DNA of 64,000 nucleotides, from positions 51,972 to 115,971 of the forward strand of contig QCOH01000002.1 in assembly GCA_003209895.1 (NCBI GenBank), read 5' to 3'. The DNA comes from Pelagibacteraceae bacterium AG-430-I06. GTDB lineage: Bacteria; Pseudomonadota; Alphaproteobacteria; Pelagibacterales; Pelagibacteraceae. Both the position numbers and the translations under genes were made by a program. Below are positions 58,360 through 64,000 of the stretch, one piece after another. Under the pieces are notes generated by a model. It searched no databases and had not been told where the DNA came from. It saw only the letters and a list, made by a program, of their open reading frames with translations. Within the stretch, counting starts at the first letter, position 1. Every line of letters starts with the position of its first letter.

Positions 58360-59305
58360 GAGAGAGGAGATTGTGTATGTGACAAATACCTTTTATTTTT
58401 CCATTACCAGAATATACAACTAGTGATGTTATTTTTTTTTGATTCATAATTGAGAGGGCTTTGTGGGCTGTAATATCCTCATCAACTTTAAACGGATTTT
58501 TATTTGCAATTCTCTCAACTTTATCTTTTTTAGAATATTTTCCCAAGCCTCTTCTGGCATCTCCATCTGTACATATAGAAAGTACTTTCCCTTTTTTAGT
58601 TACAAGAACTAATCCTAATTTTTTTGCACTGATAATTTTAGCCGCCTGTTCAATTGTTTTATTTCTATCAACAATAGGAATTTTTTTTCCGGTAACCATC
58701 ACATCTTTCACTAAAAGCAAAGTTCTACCGAGGCTGCCGCCTTTGTGGTATCGTTTAAATATTTCTTTAGAAAAATTTTTCTTATATTGAATTGCTGCAC
58801 AAAGCGCATCACCAAGCACTAATGTAATTGTTGTGCTTGAGGTCGGCACAATTGATGTAATATCTGCTTCTTTAACTTTTGGAAGTAATAATTTTATATC
58901 ACTTGCTTTTATCAACACACTGTTTTTCGAACTAGCCACACCAATAATTCGAATTCCGAATCTATTAGCAAAATTAAGCATATCATTAAGTTCTTCTGAG
59001 TTTCCAGAATATGAAAATATTAGAAGCACATCTTTTTTTTGTATTTGGCCCATGTCGCCATGTCTAGCTGTTCCTGGGTCGCAAAAGAAACTCGAAACTC
59101 CAATGCTCGAAAGTGTTGCAGAAACTTTCCTGGCTATTAATCCTGATTTACCAACACCAGCACAAATAACTTTGCCTTTACAACTTGCAAGGGTCTCAAC
59201 TGCTTTAGAAAAAGACTTATTAAAAACCTTGTTAATCTTCTTTAGTTCTGAAATCTGTATGTTCGCAGATTTTTTTGCAATTTTTATAAAATTTTTTTTA
59301 GACAT
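58346..59305 (-). CDS. kdsD: Arabinose-5-phosphate isomerase (KdsD/KpsF family)
   Basis: VICAGVGKSGLIARKVSATLSSIGVSSFFCDPGTARHGDMG, SYSGNSEEL, C-terminal CBS pair. Confidence 0.94.
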   Translation of the reverse strand: MSKKNFIKIAKKSANIQISELKKINKVFNKSFSKAVETLASCKGKVICAGVGKSGLIARKVSATLSSIGVSSFFCDPGTARHGDMGQIQKKDVLLIFSYSGNSEELNDMLNFANRFGIRIIGVASSKNSVLIKASDIKLLLPKVKEADITSIVPTSSTTITLVLGDALCAAIQYKKNFSKEIFKRYHKGGSLGRTLLLVKDVMVTGKKIPIVDRNKTIEQAAKIISAKKLGLVLVTKKGKVLSICTDGDARRGLGKYSKKDKVERIANKNPFKVDEDITAHKALSIMNQKKITSLVVYSGNGKIKGICHIHNLLSHGIK

Positions 59306-59709
59306 TAGTGTTCAAACACATCAAATTTAAAACCAGATTGATCCAACTTTATTCTTGTATCTAAAAATGTAATACAACTTTTATATAGATCCATACGTCC
59401 TTCTCTCTTTAACTTCTTTTCTCCAAATTTTTTTTTTGCACTATTATTGAAAAATTTGATATTTTTAAATTTATCTACAATTAAAATTAGATCATCGATT
59501 TGATTTATAATCTTTACTTGCTCATTAGTTTTTTCAATATTTTCATTGGTGATGTCTTCTATCCCCTCTTCTTTATCACCTGATTTTAGTTTGTCTTTTT
59601 GTCTATTTATTTCTGATTTTGCGGCTATACCTGCTCCGATGCTTTTAAAAGATACGAATATAACAAATATAGCAAGACCTGCGCCTATTAATATAAATAG
59701 TAAATCCAT
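59305..59709 (-). CDS. Small membrane-anchored protein with possible truncated PAS-like segment
   Basis: N-terminal TM LLFILIGAGLAIFVIFVSF; DDLILIVDKFKNIKFFNNSAKKKFG resembles the start of a PAS fold; TAATG junction with kdsD. Confidence 0.55.
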   Translation of the reverse strand: MDLLFILIGAGLAIFVIFVSFKSIGAGIAAKSEINRQKDKLKSGDKEEGIEDITNENIEKTNEQVKIINQIDDLILIVDKFKNIKFFNNSAKKKFGEKKLKREGRMDLYKSCITFLDTRIKLDQSGFKFDVFEH

Positions 59710-59756: not shown

Positions 59757-60791
59757 CTAGTTTACTGCAGTGTTATTGATAAATATCTCTGCACATCTCT
59801 TCCAAGTAAATTGTTTAGCAAATTCTTTACAGTTGTCTCTATCTGCTTTTAAAGCTGTCAAAGCCGCTTTTTTTAAATCTTTATCAAGACAACCAATTGA
59901 TTTTCCATTAGCTAATTTAAAAATATCCATTGTACCTGGGCAATCAGCGTAACCTGCTACGGGTGTTCCTGCCATCAAAGACTCTATACATACAATTCCA
60001 AATGTTTCCGTTTTTGATGGAAAAACAAAAACGTCAGCTGATGCAAAATAAGAAGCTAATTCACCGTTCGTTTTTTGACCAACAAACTTAGCATCGGGAT
60101 ACTCTTTTGTGAGTTTTTTTAAATGGGGGCCTGTACCAACTAATATTTTTTTACCTGGTAAATCAAGGTCTAAAAAATCTTTAATATTTTTTTCCAATGC
60201 GATCCTTCCTACATAAACAAAAATTGGTTTGTTGTAATTTAATGTCATTTTCTTTGGTTCTCCTAAATGATCTGCCCCTCTTGTCCAAACAACCATTTTG
60301 TCATTAATTACCCCTATATCGCTTAGTTCTTTTTTCATCGACTCTGTAGTGACTAATACCCTTTCAGCTTTGTTGTGAAAGTTACTTAAAAATTTTTGGG
60401 ATATTTTTTCGGGTATTATAGGGAGATATAATTTTAGATATTTATCAAATCTAGTGTGAAAACTTGTAGTAAATTTTATCTTATTCCTAACTAAATATCT
60501 TCTAGCTGATAGTCCTATAGGTCCCTCTGTAGCAATATGTATTCTAAACTGTTCATTATTATTTTGTGCTTCGATCATTTCTTTTTTAATTAATTTACCA
60601 ACCCTCCATACATTTATGGCTAATTTGATTTCATTATATTTGGGCATTGGAACTGTGAAAAATTGAGTAGGTTTAATGTAGCTAACTTTGTGACCCATTT
60701 TTTTTAATTCAATTTCTAATCTTGAATAAGATCTGGTCACACCATTTAAAACATGTTCCGGACAAGCATCCGTAACAATTAATATTCTCAT
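59757..60791 (-). CDS. GT4-family glycosyltransferase (Agt/lipid glycosyltransferase-like)
   Basis: TDACPEHVLNGVTRSYSRLEIELKKMGH, FTTSFHTRFDKYLKLYLPI, VYVGRIALEKNIKDFL, FVFPSKTETFGIVCIESLMAGTPVAGY. Confidence 0.88.
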   Translation of the reverse strand: MRILIVTDACPEHVLNGVTRSYSRLEIELKKMGHKVSYIKPTQFFTVPMPKYNEIKLAINVWRVGKLIKKEMIEAQNNNEQFRIHIATEGPIGLSARRYLVRNKIKFTTSFHTRFDKYLKLYLPIIPEKISQKFLSNFHNKAERVLVTTESMKKELSDIGVINDKMVVWTRGADHLGEPKKMTLNYNKPIFVYVGRIALEKNIKDFLDLDLPGKKILVGTGPHLKKLTKEYPDAKFVGQKTNGELASYFASADVFVFPSKTETFGIVCIESLMAGTPVAGYADCPGTMDIFKLANGKSIGCLDKDLKKAALTALKADRDNCKEFAKQFTWKRCAEIFINNTAVN

Positions 60792-60796
60792 AAATG

Positions 60797-61609
60797 TTAA
60801 ACTACCTCTTTAAGCTGAGTTCTGTAATTTACCACTTCTTGTCTAATTTCATCCCACTTAATAATTTCCATTTTTCCATCTAGATGCTCTACAAGAGCAG
60901 TGCAGTTCTCTACCCAATCACCACAATTTAAATAGTTCACTCCATCATAATTTTGATTTGAAGCTTTATGAATATGTCCACAAATAATTCCGTCGACATT
61001 TTTCTTTTTACCGTAGCTAGATACAGTTTTTTCATAATCACCTATATATTTAACTACATTCTTTACTTTATTTTTTAAAAATTTTGCAAGCGACCACTTC
61101 TCCTTGCCAAAAATGTTTCTAATAAAATTTACTAAATTATTTAATCTTAATAATAAATTATAAGCGTTGGCACCCACTTTAGATAACCAGGGTGCATATT
61201 TCATAACACCATCCCACTGGTCTCCATGAATTACCACATATTTTTTTTTATCAACTGTTTCATGTATACATTTGTTTATTAACTCAACATCGCCAAAATC
61301 TATTGGAACAAACTTTCTAAAAATCTCATCGTGGTTTCCTATAATATATTTTACTTTTGTACCGTGTCTTGCCTTTCTAAGAGTTTTTTGAATGACATCA
61401 TTGTGTTCTTGTGGCCAAAAAAAACTTTTTTTGAGAGCCCAAATATCGAAGATGTCTCCCACCAAATAAAGATTTTCTGATCTTGTGTGTTTATAAAATT
61501 CTAAGAGTTTATTTGCTTGGCAACCAACTGTTCCTAGATGAACATCTGAGATGAATATACTTTTAAATGTAAGTATTTTTCCTTCGGCGCTAGATTTTAT
61601 TTGTTTCAT
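60797..61609 (-). CDS. plcP: PlcP-like metallophosphoesterase (UDP-2,3-diacylglucosamine hydrolase superfamily)
   Basis: SIFISDVHLGTVGCQANKLLEFYKH, LVGDIFDIWALKKSFFWPQEHNDVIQKTLRKARHGTKVKYIIGNHDE, VVIHGDQWDGVM, DGIICGHIHKAS, NCGDWVENCTALVEHLDG; adjacent glycosyltransferase. Confidence 0.85.
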   Translation of the reverse strand: MKQIKSSAEGKILTFKSIFISDVHLGTVGCQANKLLEFYKHTRSENLYLVGDIFDIWALKKSFFWPQEHNDVIQKTLRKARHGTKVKYIIGNHDEIFRKFVPIDFGDVELINKCIHETVDKKKYVVIHGDQWDGVMKYAPWLSKVGANAYNLLLRLNNLVNFIRNIFGKEKWSLAKFLKNKVKNVVKYIGDYEKTVSSYGKKKNVDGIICGHIHKASNQNYDGVNYLNCGDWVENCTALVEHLDGKMEIIKWDEIRQEVVNYRTQLKEVV

Positions 61610-61637
61610 TTTATAAAACGAATCTCTTCTTTTAGTT

Positions 61638-61666
61638 GAATCATAAATATGTTACAGAAATGTTAA
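61638..61666 (+). promoter_or_regulatory. Possible Pho-box-like 11-bp-spaced direct repeats in the plcP / lipid-kinase divergent region
   Basis: GAATCAT-AAAT-ATGTTAC-AGAA-ATGTTAA: three 7-mers with 4-bp spacers; each matches only 4/7 of CTGTCAT, so weak. Confidence 0.25.
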
Positions 61667-61668
61667 AA

Positions 61669-62568
61669 ATGATTAAAAAATTAAAATTTTCCATCATTTT
61701 TAATGCTAACGCAGCAGGTGGAAGAAAATTAAAGCTTATCAACAAAGTAATAGAGCTTCTTAAAATAGATCATTCGGTAGAGTTATTTAAAACCAGCTCT
61801 GAAAAAGATGCTGAAAAAGTTTTTAGTGAATTATCAAAAAATAACACAGATAGAGTCGTAATTGCAGGTGGTGATGGTTCAGTATGTTTTGGAATAAATC
61901 AGATCATAAATAAGTATAAAGACATTGATAAGCCTATTATCGGTTACATACCTGCAGGAACAGCAAATATACTTCAGATTGAAACACAAATAGAAAAAAA
62001 AGCTAAAGAAATTTATAAAGTACTTGTTTCAGAAAACACCAAAAAAATTAATCTTGCAAAAATTAATGATAAATATTTCTTTCTTATGGCTGGAATTGGT
62101 TTTGACTCAGAGATTGTGCATTCAATAGACTCTCAAATTAAAAAATATTTAGGTAAGATAATTTTTGCGCTTAAAGGTCTGCAACATTTTATATTTCTAA
62201 AAAATAAAAAGATGAAAGTTAATGTCGATGGAAAAATAATTAAAGCCGATTGGGTACTTGTAACAAATTCAAAATATTATGCAGGACCACACTCTATTAC
62301 GAAAAAAACAAATATTTTTGATAATAAAGTTATTGCTTATATATTTGAAGATCTTTCAAGAATTAAAATTTTATATTACCTTTGGCTAATATTATCAAAA
62401 GGAGATTTAAGTAGAGCAAAAAGTATTATTACTAAAGAGCTTGATAAGTTAGAAATTGATAAACTTGAAAATAAAGTTCTCTCACAAATAGATGGTGAGG
62501 ACTTTGGTTTTGAAGACAAATTAATAATTAGAAAAAGTGATAAATCTTTTAACTTGTTAGTACCCTAG
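61669..62568 (+). CDS. Diacylglycerol kinase-family lipid kinase
   Basis: FNANAAGGRKLKL, VVIAGGDGSVCFGINQII, GYIPAGTANILQIET, MAGIGFDSEIV. ORF track starts at TTG 61636; ATG 61669 (MIKKLKFSIIFNANAAGG) preferred. Confidence 0.9.
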   Translation: MIKKLKFSIIFNANAAGGRKLKLINKVIELLKIDHSVELFKTSSEKDAEKVFSELSKNNTDRVVIAGGDGSVCFGINQIINKYKDIDKPIIGYIPAGTANILQIETQIEKKAKEIYKVLVSENTKKINLAKINDKYFFLMAGIGFDSEIVHSIDSQIKKYLGKIIFALKGLQHFIFLKNKKMKVNVDGKIIKADWVLVTNSKYYAGPHSITKKTNIFDNKVIAYIFEDLSRIKILYYLWLILSKGDLSRAKSIITKELDKLEIDKLENKVLSQIDGEDFGFEDKLIIRKSDKSFNLLVP

Positions 62569-63509
62569 ACTTTTGCGAATTCTCCACCTGATCGGTAACG
62601 CCACAGCCACTTTTCCATTTCTTTTTCAATATCTGTCGGTTTGATATTTAAATCTTTTAAAGTTAAGTGATCGCCAGATACCACATTATCTTTTTCAGAA
62701 AGTATTAGACATTGATCTTTTGTTATAATTGGATCAATCGGTAAAAGACCCAAAAGCGAACTTTGAATTTTAGCTAAAGTCATCGGCACATCAGCAACAA
62801 ATCTTTTTTTTCCAATTGTGCTTAAAATTAGTTTTATCATATCCCCAAAACTAATCACTCTGCCGCCACCTAGTTCATAAATTTTACCTTCATTATTTTT
62901 AGTTTCGATAGCTTTTAAAATTGCTCTTGCAACATCATTTACGAAAATAGGCTCAAATTTATAATTTACATTCACTACGGGAATTATTGGCGAAAGGCTT
63001 AATTTTGCAAATAAATTTGTAAAATTATCTTCATTACCAATTACAACGCTTGGTCTTATAATCACAGTTTTATCAAAATTACTTAAAGCTTTTTCTTCCC
63101 CTAAAAATTTAGATTGCTGGTATTTTGATTTAGAATCTTTACTAGCACCAATAGCAGAAACATGAATAAACTTTTTTACTTTTGATTGTGCGCAAAGTTT
63201 TGCGATGCTTTCAGGAATATCTCCGTGAATACTATTAAATTTTTGTTTTCTATTTTCAAATAATATTCCACAAAGATTAATAACTACATCTGAATTTTCT
63301 ACAGCGTTTTTAATTTCTTCAAAATTATTTTGACCAAATTTTATAATTTCTATTGCCCCCGTGGGTGCTTGTGTTTTTAAGTAAACCTTCGAAAAAGGAC
63401 TTCTTGTCGGAATAATGCATCTATAGTTCTTCTTGGTCAAATTTCTGACAAGATAACGTCCTATAAAACCTCCACCACCTAGAATTGTTGCTATCGGGTA
63501 ATTATTCAT
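62565..63509 (-). CDS. Complex I NDUFA9-family NAD(P)-binding protein
   Basis: ATILGGGGFIGRYLVRNLTKKNYRC, VVINLCGILFENRKQKF, VSAIGASKDSKSKYQQSKFLGEE, IIRPSVVIGNEDNFTNLFA. ATG at 63509 (MNNYPIATILGGGGFIG) preferred over 63533. Confidence 0.9.
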   Translation of the reverse strand: MNNYPIATILGGGGFIGRYLVRNLTKKNYRCIIPTRSPFSKVYLKTQAPTGAIEIIKFGQNNFEEIKNAVENSDVVINLCGILFENRKQKFNSIHGDIPESIAKLCAQSKVKKFIHVSAIGASKDSKSKYQQSKFLGEEKALSNFDKTVIIRPSVVIGNEDNFTNLFAKLSLSPIIPVVNVNYKFEPIFVNDVARAILKAIETKNNEGKIYELGGGRVISFGDMIKLILSTIGKKRFVADVPMTLAKIQSSLLGLLPIDPIITKDQCLILSEKDNVVSGDHLTLKDLNIKPTDIEKEMEKWLWRYRSGGEFAKV

Positions 63510-63526
63510 GGTATTACGGAATAGGT

Positions 63527-64000
63527 ATGGCAAAAATACATAAATTTCAAGGAGACATAACAGAAGAGGTAGTTAAATCATTTAAAGATTCTATTGCTAT
63601 TGATACCGAAGCTACAGGTTTGCAGATCCCAGAAAGAGATAAATTAAGCCTCATTCAAATTTGTGATCAGAATGGTGTTGTCTATATTATACAGCCAGAT
63701 CGAAAAAGTTATAAAGCTCCCAATCTAGTTTCTGTTTTAGAAAACGAGAAAATACTTAAAATTGGGCATTTTCTAAGATTTGATAAGAACGCGTTGGAGT
63801 TTTTTTTGAAATGTAAGGTAAAAAATATTTTTGATACCAAAATTGCAAGCAAAGTTGTAAGAACCTACACAGACCAACATGGTCTTAAAAATTTAGTTTT
63901 TGAATTTTGCAATAAAAATCTTGATAAAAGAGTGAGCAGTAGCGACTGGAATAAAGACATAAATGAATTGAGCGATAAACAGTTAGAGTACGCTTCCAAC
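63527..64000 (+). CDS. rnd: Ribonuclease D (partial, runs off window end)
   Basis: ATG at 63527; MAKIHKFQGDITEEVVKSFKDSIAIDTEATGLQIPERDKLSLIQICD..., GHFLRFDKNALEFF, DTKIASKVVRTYTDQHGLKNL: DEDD exonuclease motifs. Confidence 0.88.
   Translation, partial: MAKIHKFQGDITEEVVKSFKDSIAIDTEATGLQIPERDKLSLIQICDQNGVVYIIQPDRKSYKAPNLVSVLENEKILKIGHFLRFDKNALEFFLKCKVKNIFDTKIASKVVRTYTDQHGLKNLVFEFCNKNLDKRVSSSDWNKDINELSDKQLEYASN

Follow-up and report, generated by a model that had tools for sequence, protein, structure and literature searches.

Three adjacent genes in a genome of the Pelagibacterales order (SAR11) most likely constitute a phosphate-responsive cassette for membrane lipid remodelling, in which phosphate would be stripped from lipids and a sugar substituted. 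We assign this reading a probability of about 0.88, with the regulation in this strain and the sugar specificity being predicted. The trio consists of a GT4 glycosyltransferase gene (agt, positions 59757–60791, minus strand), a metallophosphoesterase gene (plcP, 60797–61609, minus strand) and a divergently transcribed gene for a lipid kinase of the DAGK/YegS family (61669–62568, plus strand). It is located in a window of 64,000 nucleotides, the whole stretch of DNA that was analysed, from a 925-kb genome that is 78% complete and whose named relatives are Pelagibacteraceae single-cell genomes. All three ORFs were found as described in an earlier note on this DNA, including the 5 bp that separate the glycosyltransferase and phosphoesterase ORFs. 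PlcP–Agt remodelling in SAR11 is established (PMC4796936, PMC8231724); in E. coli, the agt gene of strain HTCC7211 makes MGDG/GADG, and plcP of the same strain complements a plcP mutant of Phaeobacter (PMC4796936). The system itself is thus already known; what is new is the triad, the way it spreads as a cassette and an Asp-to-Glu change in the glycosyltransferase.

The phosphoesterase belongs to the Metallophos family in Pfam. In an alignment with the PlcP of S. meliloti, the PlcP homologue of P. aeruginosa and LpxH of E. coli, the metal-ligand positions D22, H24, D52, N92, H128, H212 and H214 are invariant. The protein is 41% identical to the S. meliloti protein and 44% identical to a plasmid-borne P. 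aeruginosa homologue of PA3219. The S. meliloti comparison protein, which we take to be PlcP (SMc00171), has sinI/sinR-like genes close to its coding sequence, the genomic setting of PlcP. Against the LpxH model TIGR01854 the phosphoesterase scores 41 bits (cut-off 190), and against PRK05340, a model of the same LpxH name, 51 bits (cut-off 134). The motif GNRD marks LpxH, and at its position the window protein has GNHDE. In a phylogeny with LpxH and PlcP, proposed as a check in the earlier note, the phosphoesterase forms one family with the S. meliloti and P. aeruginosa PlcP proteins, at a great distance from LpxH of E. coli; several outgroup rows are very long-branched, and we rely on this broad split alone. 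The clading with LpxH that the earlier note named as a refutation was not observed. LpxI was detected in 46 of the 61 relatives and in 16 of the 17 that are at least 90% complete, and this near universal presence implies that their lipid A synthesis needs neither LpxH nor the gene in question. No LpxI match was found in the window's own genome, which may be explained by its incompleteness. Sequence comparison thus supports the assignment of the phosphoesterase as PlcP, a predicted intracellular phospholipase C. PlcP enzymes are Mn-dependent and act on PE, PC and PG, an activity that for SAR11 is supported by the complementation with the HTCC7211 gene (PMC4796936). The concern that annotation would hide this function proved justified, as public records name such genes 'UDP-2,3-diacylglucosamine diphosphatase'. 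The second Metallophos gene of the genome (L001) was considered as a PlcP paralogue and rejected; it is YmdB-like by eye and adjoins 5-formyltetrahydrofolate cyclo-ligase-like and YebC-like genes.

The glycosyltransferase, encoded directly downstream of plcP, contains the Pfam domains Glyco_transf_4 and Glycos_transf_1. It is 58–62% identical to the plcP-adjacent glycosyltransferases in most SAR11 single-cell genomes and 39% identical to the one adjoining plcP in P. aeruginosa (plasmid-borne homologue). Thirteen of the 14 compared residues of GTcp (residue set from PMC8231724) are kept, including DAG and UDP-sugar residues, the kept equivalents being G16, G82, G85, H104, T162, R163, R190, K195, T257, F258, G259, E264 and W320. 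The remaining position is the catalytic Asp256 of GTcp, which corresponds to Glu262 in the window protein, so the catalytic Asp is lacking. Glu occupies this position in all 18 sampled genomes of the genus, whereas Asp is found in 95 of 97 other homologues. In GTcp, the D256E substitution cost more than 90% of the activity, yet another GT4 enzyme, MshA, naturally has Glu at the catalytic position (PMC8231724). Since the same change crippled GTcp, sugar transfer by the window protein may be altered or weak. On the other hand, agt has accumulated few replacement changes (dN 0.002 vs dS 0.024 against one relative), which is not the look of a decaying gene. Descent and context support filing the protein as Agt-like, with a predicted activity.

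The kinase has the Pfam domains DAGK_cat (E-value 5e-21) and YegS_C, and it carries the DAGK_cat domain, GGDG, PxGTAN and C-terminal DGE features of bacterial DAG kinases (DgkB/BmrU/YegS, PF00781). Among proteins of solved structure, bacterial DAG kinases, BmrU and DgkB are the closest by sequence (E-values 4e-18 to 1.4e-16). The listed ORF begins at TTG 61636, which is probably too early; near-identical relatives start at ATG 61669 (299 aa), the likelier start. We read the plcP neighbourhoods of alphaproteobacteria by six-frame profile search in a sample of 190 genomes. A PF00781 gene was located within 0.7 kb of plcP in 33 of 67 loci, and in all 33, which represent many families, it is upstream and divergent. 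The plcP–agt–kinase association is beyond chance, because plcP and agt keep this order at most plcP loci of alphaproteobacteria, and about one plcP locus in two has the divergent kinase. Among 14 named Pelagibacteraceae single-cell loci (L066–L079), 13 have the order kinase (−), plcP (+), agt (+); the remaining one is truncated by a contig end. In the kinase tree, all plcP-linked members fall into one group (SH-aLRT 96) along with 12 unlinked ones. Another 18 kinases fall outside it, among them E. coli YegS and many paralogues encoded in the same genomes. Among the SAR11 relatives, a kinase above the family cut-off was found only beside plcP. The linked kinases of most Pelagibacterales carry GGDGS-x-(C/S)-F instead of the GGDGT-x-N-E of other linked members; the Glu of GGDGTxNE is mostly lost in this order and present in all other linked proteins. 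For kinases of the same subfamily located away from plcP, no common partner emerged among the neighbourhoods examined. Some Pelagibacterales of other families possess plcP–agt with no PF00781 gene detected, and the many plcP–agt loci without an adjacent kinase indicate that it is not essential to the system. The proposal that the kinase is part of the block is nevertheless borne out by its conserved linkage to plcP. It is a conserved third gene, and its predicted role is plausible.

The phosphate context of the trio cannot be seen in the window, as the contig carries a truncated phoR. Three relatives with long contigs show the gene order kdsD, RNase D-like, epimerase, kinase, plcP, agt, phoR, pstSCAB, phoU and phoB, followed in two of the three by sixA, ppk and ppx; the ppk, ppx and glpF genes are found near the trio in some relatives. 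In relatives the trio is directly upstream of phoR-pstSCAB-phoU-phoB. In the window, approximately 100 codons of the 5' part of phoR, normally the gene directly downstream of agt, remain at 59404–59709 (minus strand) and are 95% identical to residues 1–102 of a relative's intact PhoR (401 aa); the remainder of this PhoR was not found in the assembly. Positions 59305–59709 form a fusion ORF, in which the phoR 5' part runs into the inverted 3' end of an RNase D-like gene, with the junction at 59408–59422. At 63485–64000 the contig runs out inside the RNase D-like gene, its end at 64000 being within about 50 bp of the break that matches the join at ~59415. This junction most likely arose as a chimera during amplification or assembly, although a real inversion is possible. 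Gene order across ~59415 is hence unreliable, and the adjacency of agt to kdsD and lptCB is no evidence for an LPS role.

The 59-bp gap between plcP and the kinase (61610–61668) contains a Pho-box-like repeat, TTTTAAC-N4-CTGTAAC-N4-TTATGAT (61640–61668, minus strand), and this site has in common with SAR11 pstS promoters the exact two-half-site pattern. A matrix of 29 columns, built from pstS promoters of other SAR11 loci only, gave its best score in the whole 64-kb window (~128,000 positions) at this site. The chance of a 59-bp target ranking first is approximately 1 in 1000, while shuffled 64-kb sequences sometimes reach an equal absolute score. The E. coli-type Pho-box consensus scores at chance level at SAR11 sites, including the plcP/kinase gap. 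The trio is present in 19 of the 31 genomes of the genus, and phoU was found in 17 of these 19 vs three of the 12 others (Fisher p 0.0005), these counts being noisy because of MAG/SAG incompleteness. PhoU and intact PhoR are absent from the window's own assembly (78% complete). Both enzyme assignments made in the earlier note, PlcP and Agt, are thus upheld by family scores, trees, residues, the phoR-pstSCAB-phoU-phoB synteny and the common promoter motif.

The trio appears to spread between species. Compared with 17 other species of the genus, DNA identity is 99.1–99.6% for the glycosyltransferase gene, 98.8–99.1% for plcP, 100% for the gap and 99.6–99.8% for the kinase gene, whereas the adjoining NAD-dependent epimerase/dehydratase-family gene (62565–63533, minus strand; assigned by Pfam) shows 82–98%. 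Tiling of one species pair demonstrated ~100% identity from the epimerase stop to ~250 bp into phoR, with 73–85% on either side. Three species have empty sites, where the epimerase gene is followed directly by phoR. This combination of ~99% identity in the trio, a divergent flank and empty sites elsewhere points to a cassette that spreads, and homologous recombination in the flanking sequence would be the natural way of transfer. In one species that lacks both the trio and pst, the epimerase gene is followed by a phoR remnant of ~150 bp (L207, 7660–7808), probably left behind when a phosphate island was lost. Over its first ~200 bp, phoR is 95–99% identical even between species in which the rest of the gene is ~74% identical (L199, 5518–5750); this segment is a likely recombination anchor.

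In the proposed mechanism, PhoB would bind the candidate box in the 59-bp gap under phosphate limitation and switch on plcP–agt. PlcP would cleave the head group of phosphatidylglycerol or phosphatidylethanolamine, leaving diacylglycerol (DAG) and releasing a phosphorylated alcohol that would serve as the source of recovered phosphate. Agt would add glucose and/or glucuronate from UDP-sugars to DAG, giving phosphorus-free glycolipids, and the divergent kinase would phosphorylate DAG, so that any surplus re-enters phospholipid synthesis as phosphatidic acid. The substrate of the kinase and its direction, i.e., DAG to phosphatidic acid and hence DAG recycling, are what we infer. As the box abuts the kinase start, opposite control, with the kinase switched on as phosphate returns, is possible; co-induction with plcP–agt is equally open. 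A more elaborate version, in which the three enzymes form a reversible switch, the PhoB box holds back the kinase until phosphate returns, and the whole passes from one SAR11 species to another as a 2.8-kb cassette with sharp boundaries, inserted upstream of phoR, can be offered only tentatively.

Alternative readings concern the individual members of the trio. That the PlcP–Agt pair works as proposed while the kinase acts on ceramide, phosphatidylglycerol or the glycolipid product, so that the trio is no DAG branch point, seems unlikely: PF00781 kinases are promiscuous, the Caulobacter CpgB phosphorylating both ceramide and DAG (PMC10331486), and the GGDGTxNE motif is changed in Pelagibacterales, but the nearest solved structures are DAG kinases and the linkage to DAG-making and DAG-using enzymes is kept across the class. 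We consider it distinctly improbable that the kinase is a mere neighbour, with an intergenic region kept by inertia of gene order and no role in lipid remodelling. The plcP loci that have no kinase (half of them) and the subfamily members away from plcP in other genomes would fit such a view; it is countered by the identical divergent arrangement in every nearby case across many families, by the restriction of kinases above the family cut-off, among SAR11 relatives, to places with plcP, with which the kinase moves at ~99% identity between species, and by an ocean distribution equal to that of the metallophosphoesterase and glycosyltransferase clusters (PMC3686209).

The catalytic substitution raises the possibility that the Glu-bearing enzyme of this genus has lost the ability to form Agt products, and that the cassette merely frees phosphate and recycles DAG via the kinase. 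The activity lost by GTcp D256E and the Glu in all sampled genomes of the genus, against Asp in 95 of 97 other homologues, speak for it, whereas the natural Glu of GT4 enzymes such as MshA, the retention of all remaining compared active-site residues and the few replacement changes in the gene make it very unlikely. Least credible is a role in the cell envelope, with the phosphoesterase being the lipid A enzyme LpxH and the glycosyltransferase an LPS enzyme. This would agree with the automatic annotation and with the LPS genes kdsD, lptC and lptB beside both in the window, but the phosphoesterase falls 149 bits short of the LpxH cut-off, groups with PlcP, has GNHD instead of GNRD and is patchily distributed among relatives in which LpxI is near universal, while the agt–kdsD adjacency is a product of the join at ~59415, where relatives carry phoR-pst. 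Lipid remodelling therefore remains the preferred reading of the trio.

Among known systems, 'Ca. Pelagibacter' HTCC7211 (PB7211_983/PB7211_960; GTcp WP_008545403) resembles the window in gene order, families and SAR11 host, and differs in the catalytic Asp of its Agt. It also has a DAGK-domain gene cluster labelled 'HTCC7211 only' (PMC3686209). In metagenomes from four seas, the HTCC7211-only SAR11 clusters 'diacylglycerol kinase', 'metallophosphoesterase' and 'glycosyl transferase group 1' were over-represented at BATS, most of what remained being Mediterranean. All three reach their maximum in the Sargasso Sea, with the Mediterranean next; none is present at HOT, and in the Red Sea they are low or missing (PMC3686209). 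This independently indicates that the three genes travel together. The P. aeruginosa plcP-agt1 pair (PA3219-PA3218) shares the two-gene order, its plasmid-borne homologues being those compared above, but has no adjacent kinase and an E. coli-type Pho box (PMC8528852). The plasmid segment that carries these homologues (L064, 4956–6820) apparently also contains chromosome-like genes. The S. meliloti PlcP is like that of the window in metal ligands, GNHDE and identity, whereas its gene has no adjacent agt or kinase in the record examined, and PlcP there feeds DGTS synthesis. That Ak57 record (L063), labelled pSymB (3.7 Mb), bears the sinI/sinR-like genes and plcP, which are chromosomal in other S. 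meliloti; the label may be wrong or the replicons fused. Rhodobacterales/Stappiaceae plasmids carry another lipid-glycosylation pairing, a PlcP/LpxH-like gene directly followed by a 'ceramide glucosyltransferase' gene (L263, 3905–5871; L264, 3872–5913).

A 2023 study of HIMB59 phosphate islands reported DGK, 'LpxH' and 'RfaG' beside pst/phoBR, with lipid remodelling unrecognised; islands fGIp-C/D/E, which we liken to our locus by gene names, combine these three with PhoRB, PstSCAB, ppk, ppx, sixA and glpF, and the authors gave the glycosyltransferase and DGK no direct phosphorus role and read the phosphoesterase as LpxH (PMC10734472). In Pseudomonas, DagK is among the PHO-dependent lipid remodelling proteins (PMC5082522). 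The openly accessible PlcP–Agt literature yielded no mention of a PF00781 kinase as a genomic partner, and its membership of this system seems not to have been reported before.

The LpxH misannotation hides a lipid-remodelling trait in public genomes and has already misled one island study past it (PMC10734472). If the kinase is a third component, one-way models of DAG conversion to glycolipids miss a return path. For SAR11, PlcP–Agt remodelling means phosphorus saving in phosphate-poor seas, and the cross-species identity of the cassette provides a specific example of gene flow carrying a nutrient trait from one SAR11 species to another.
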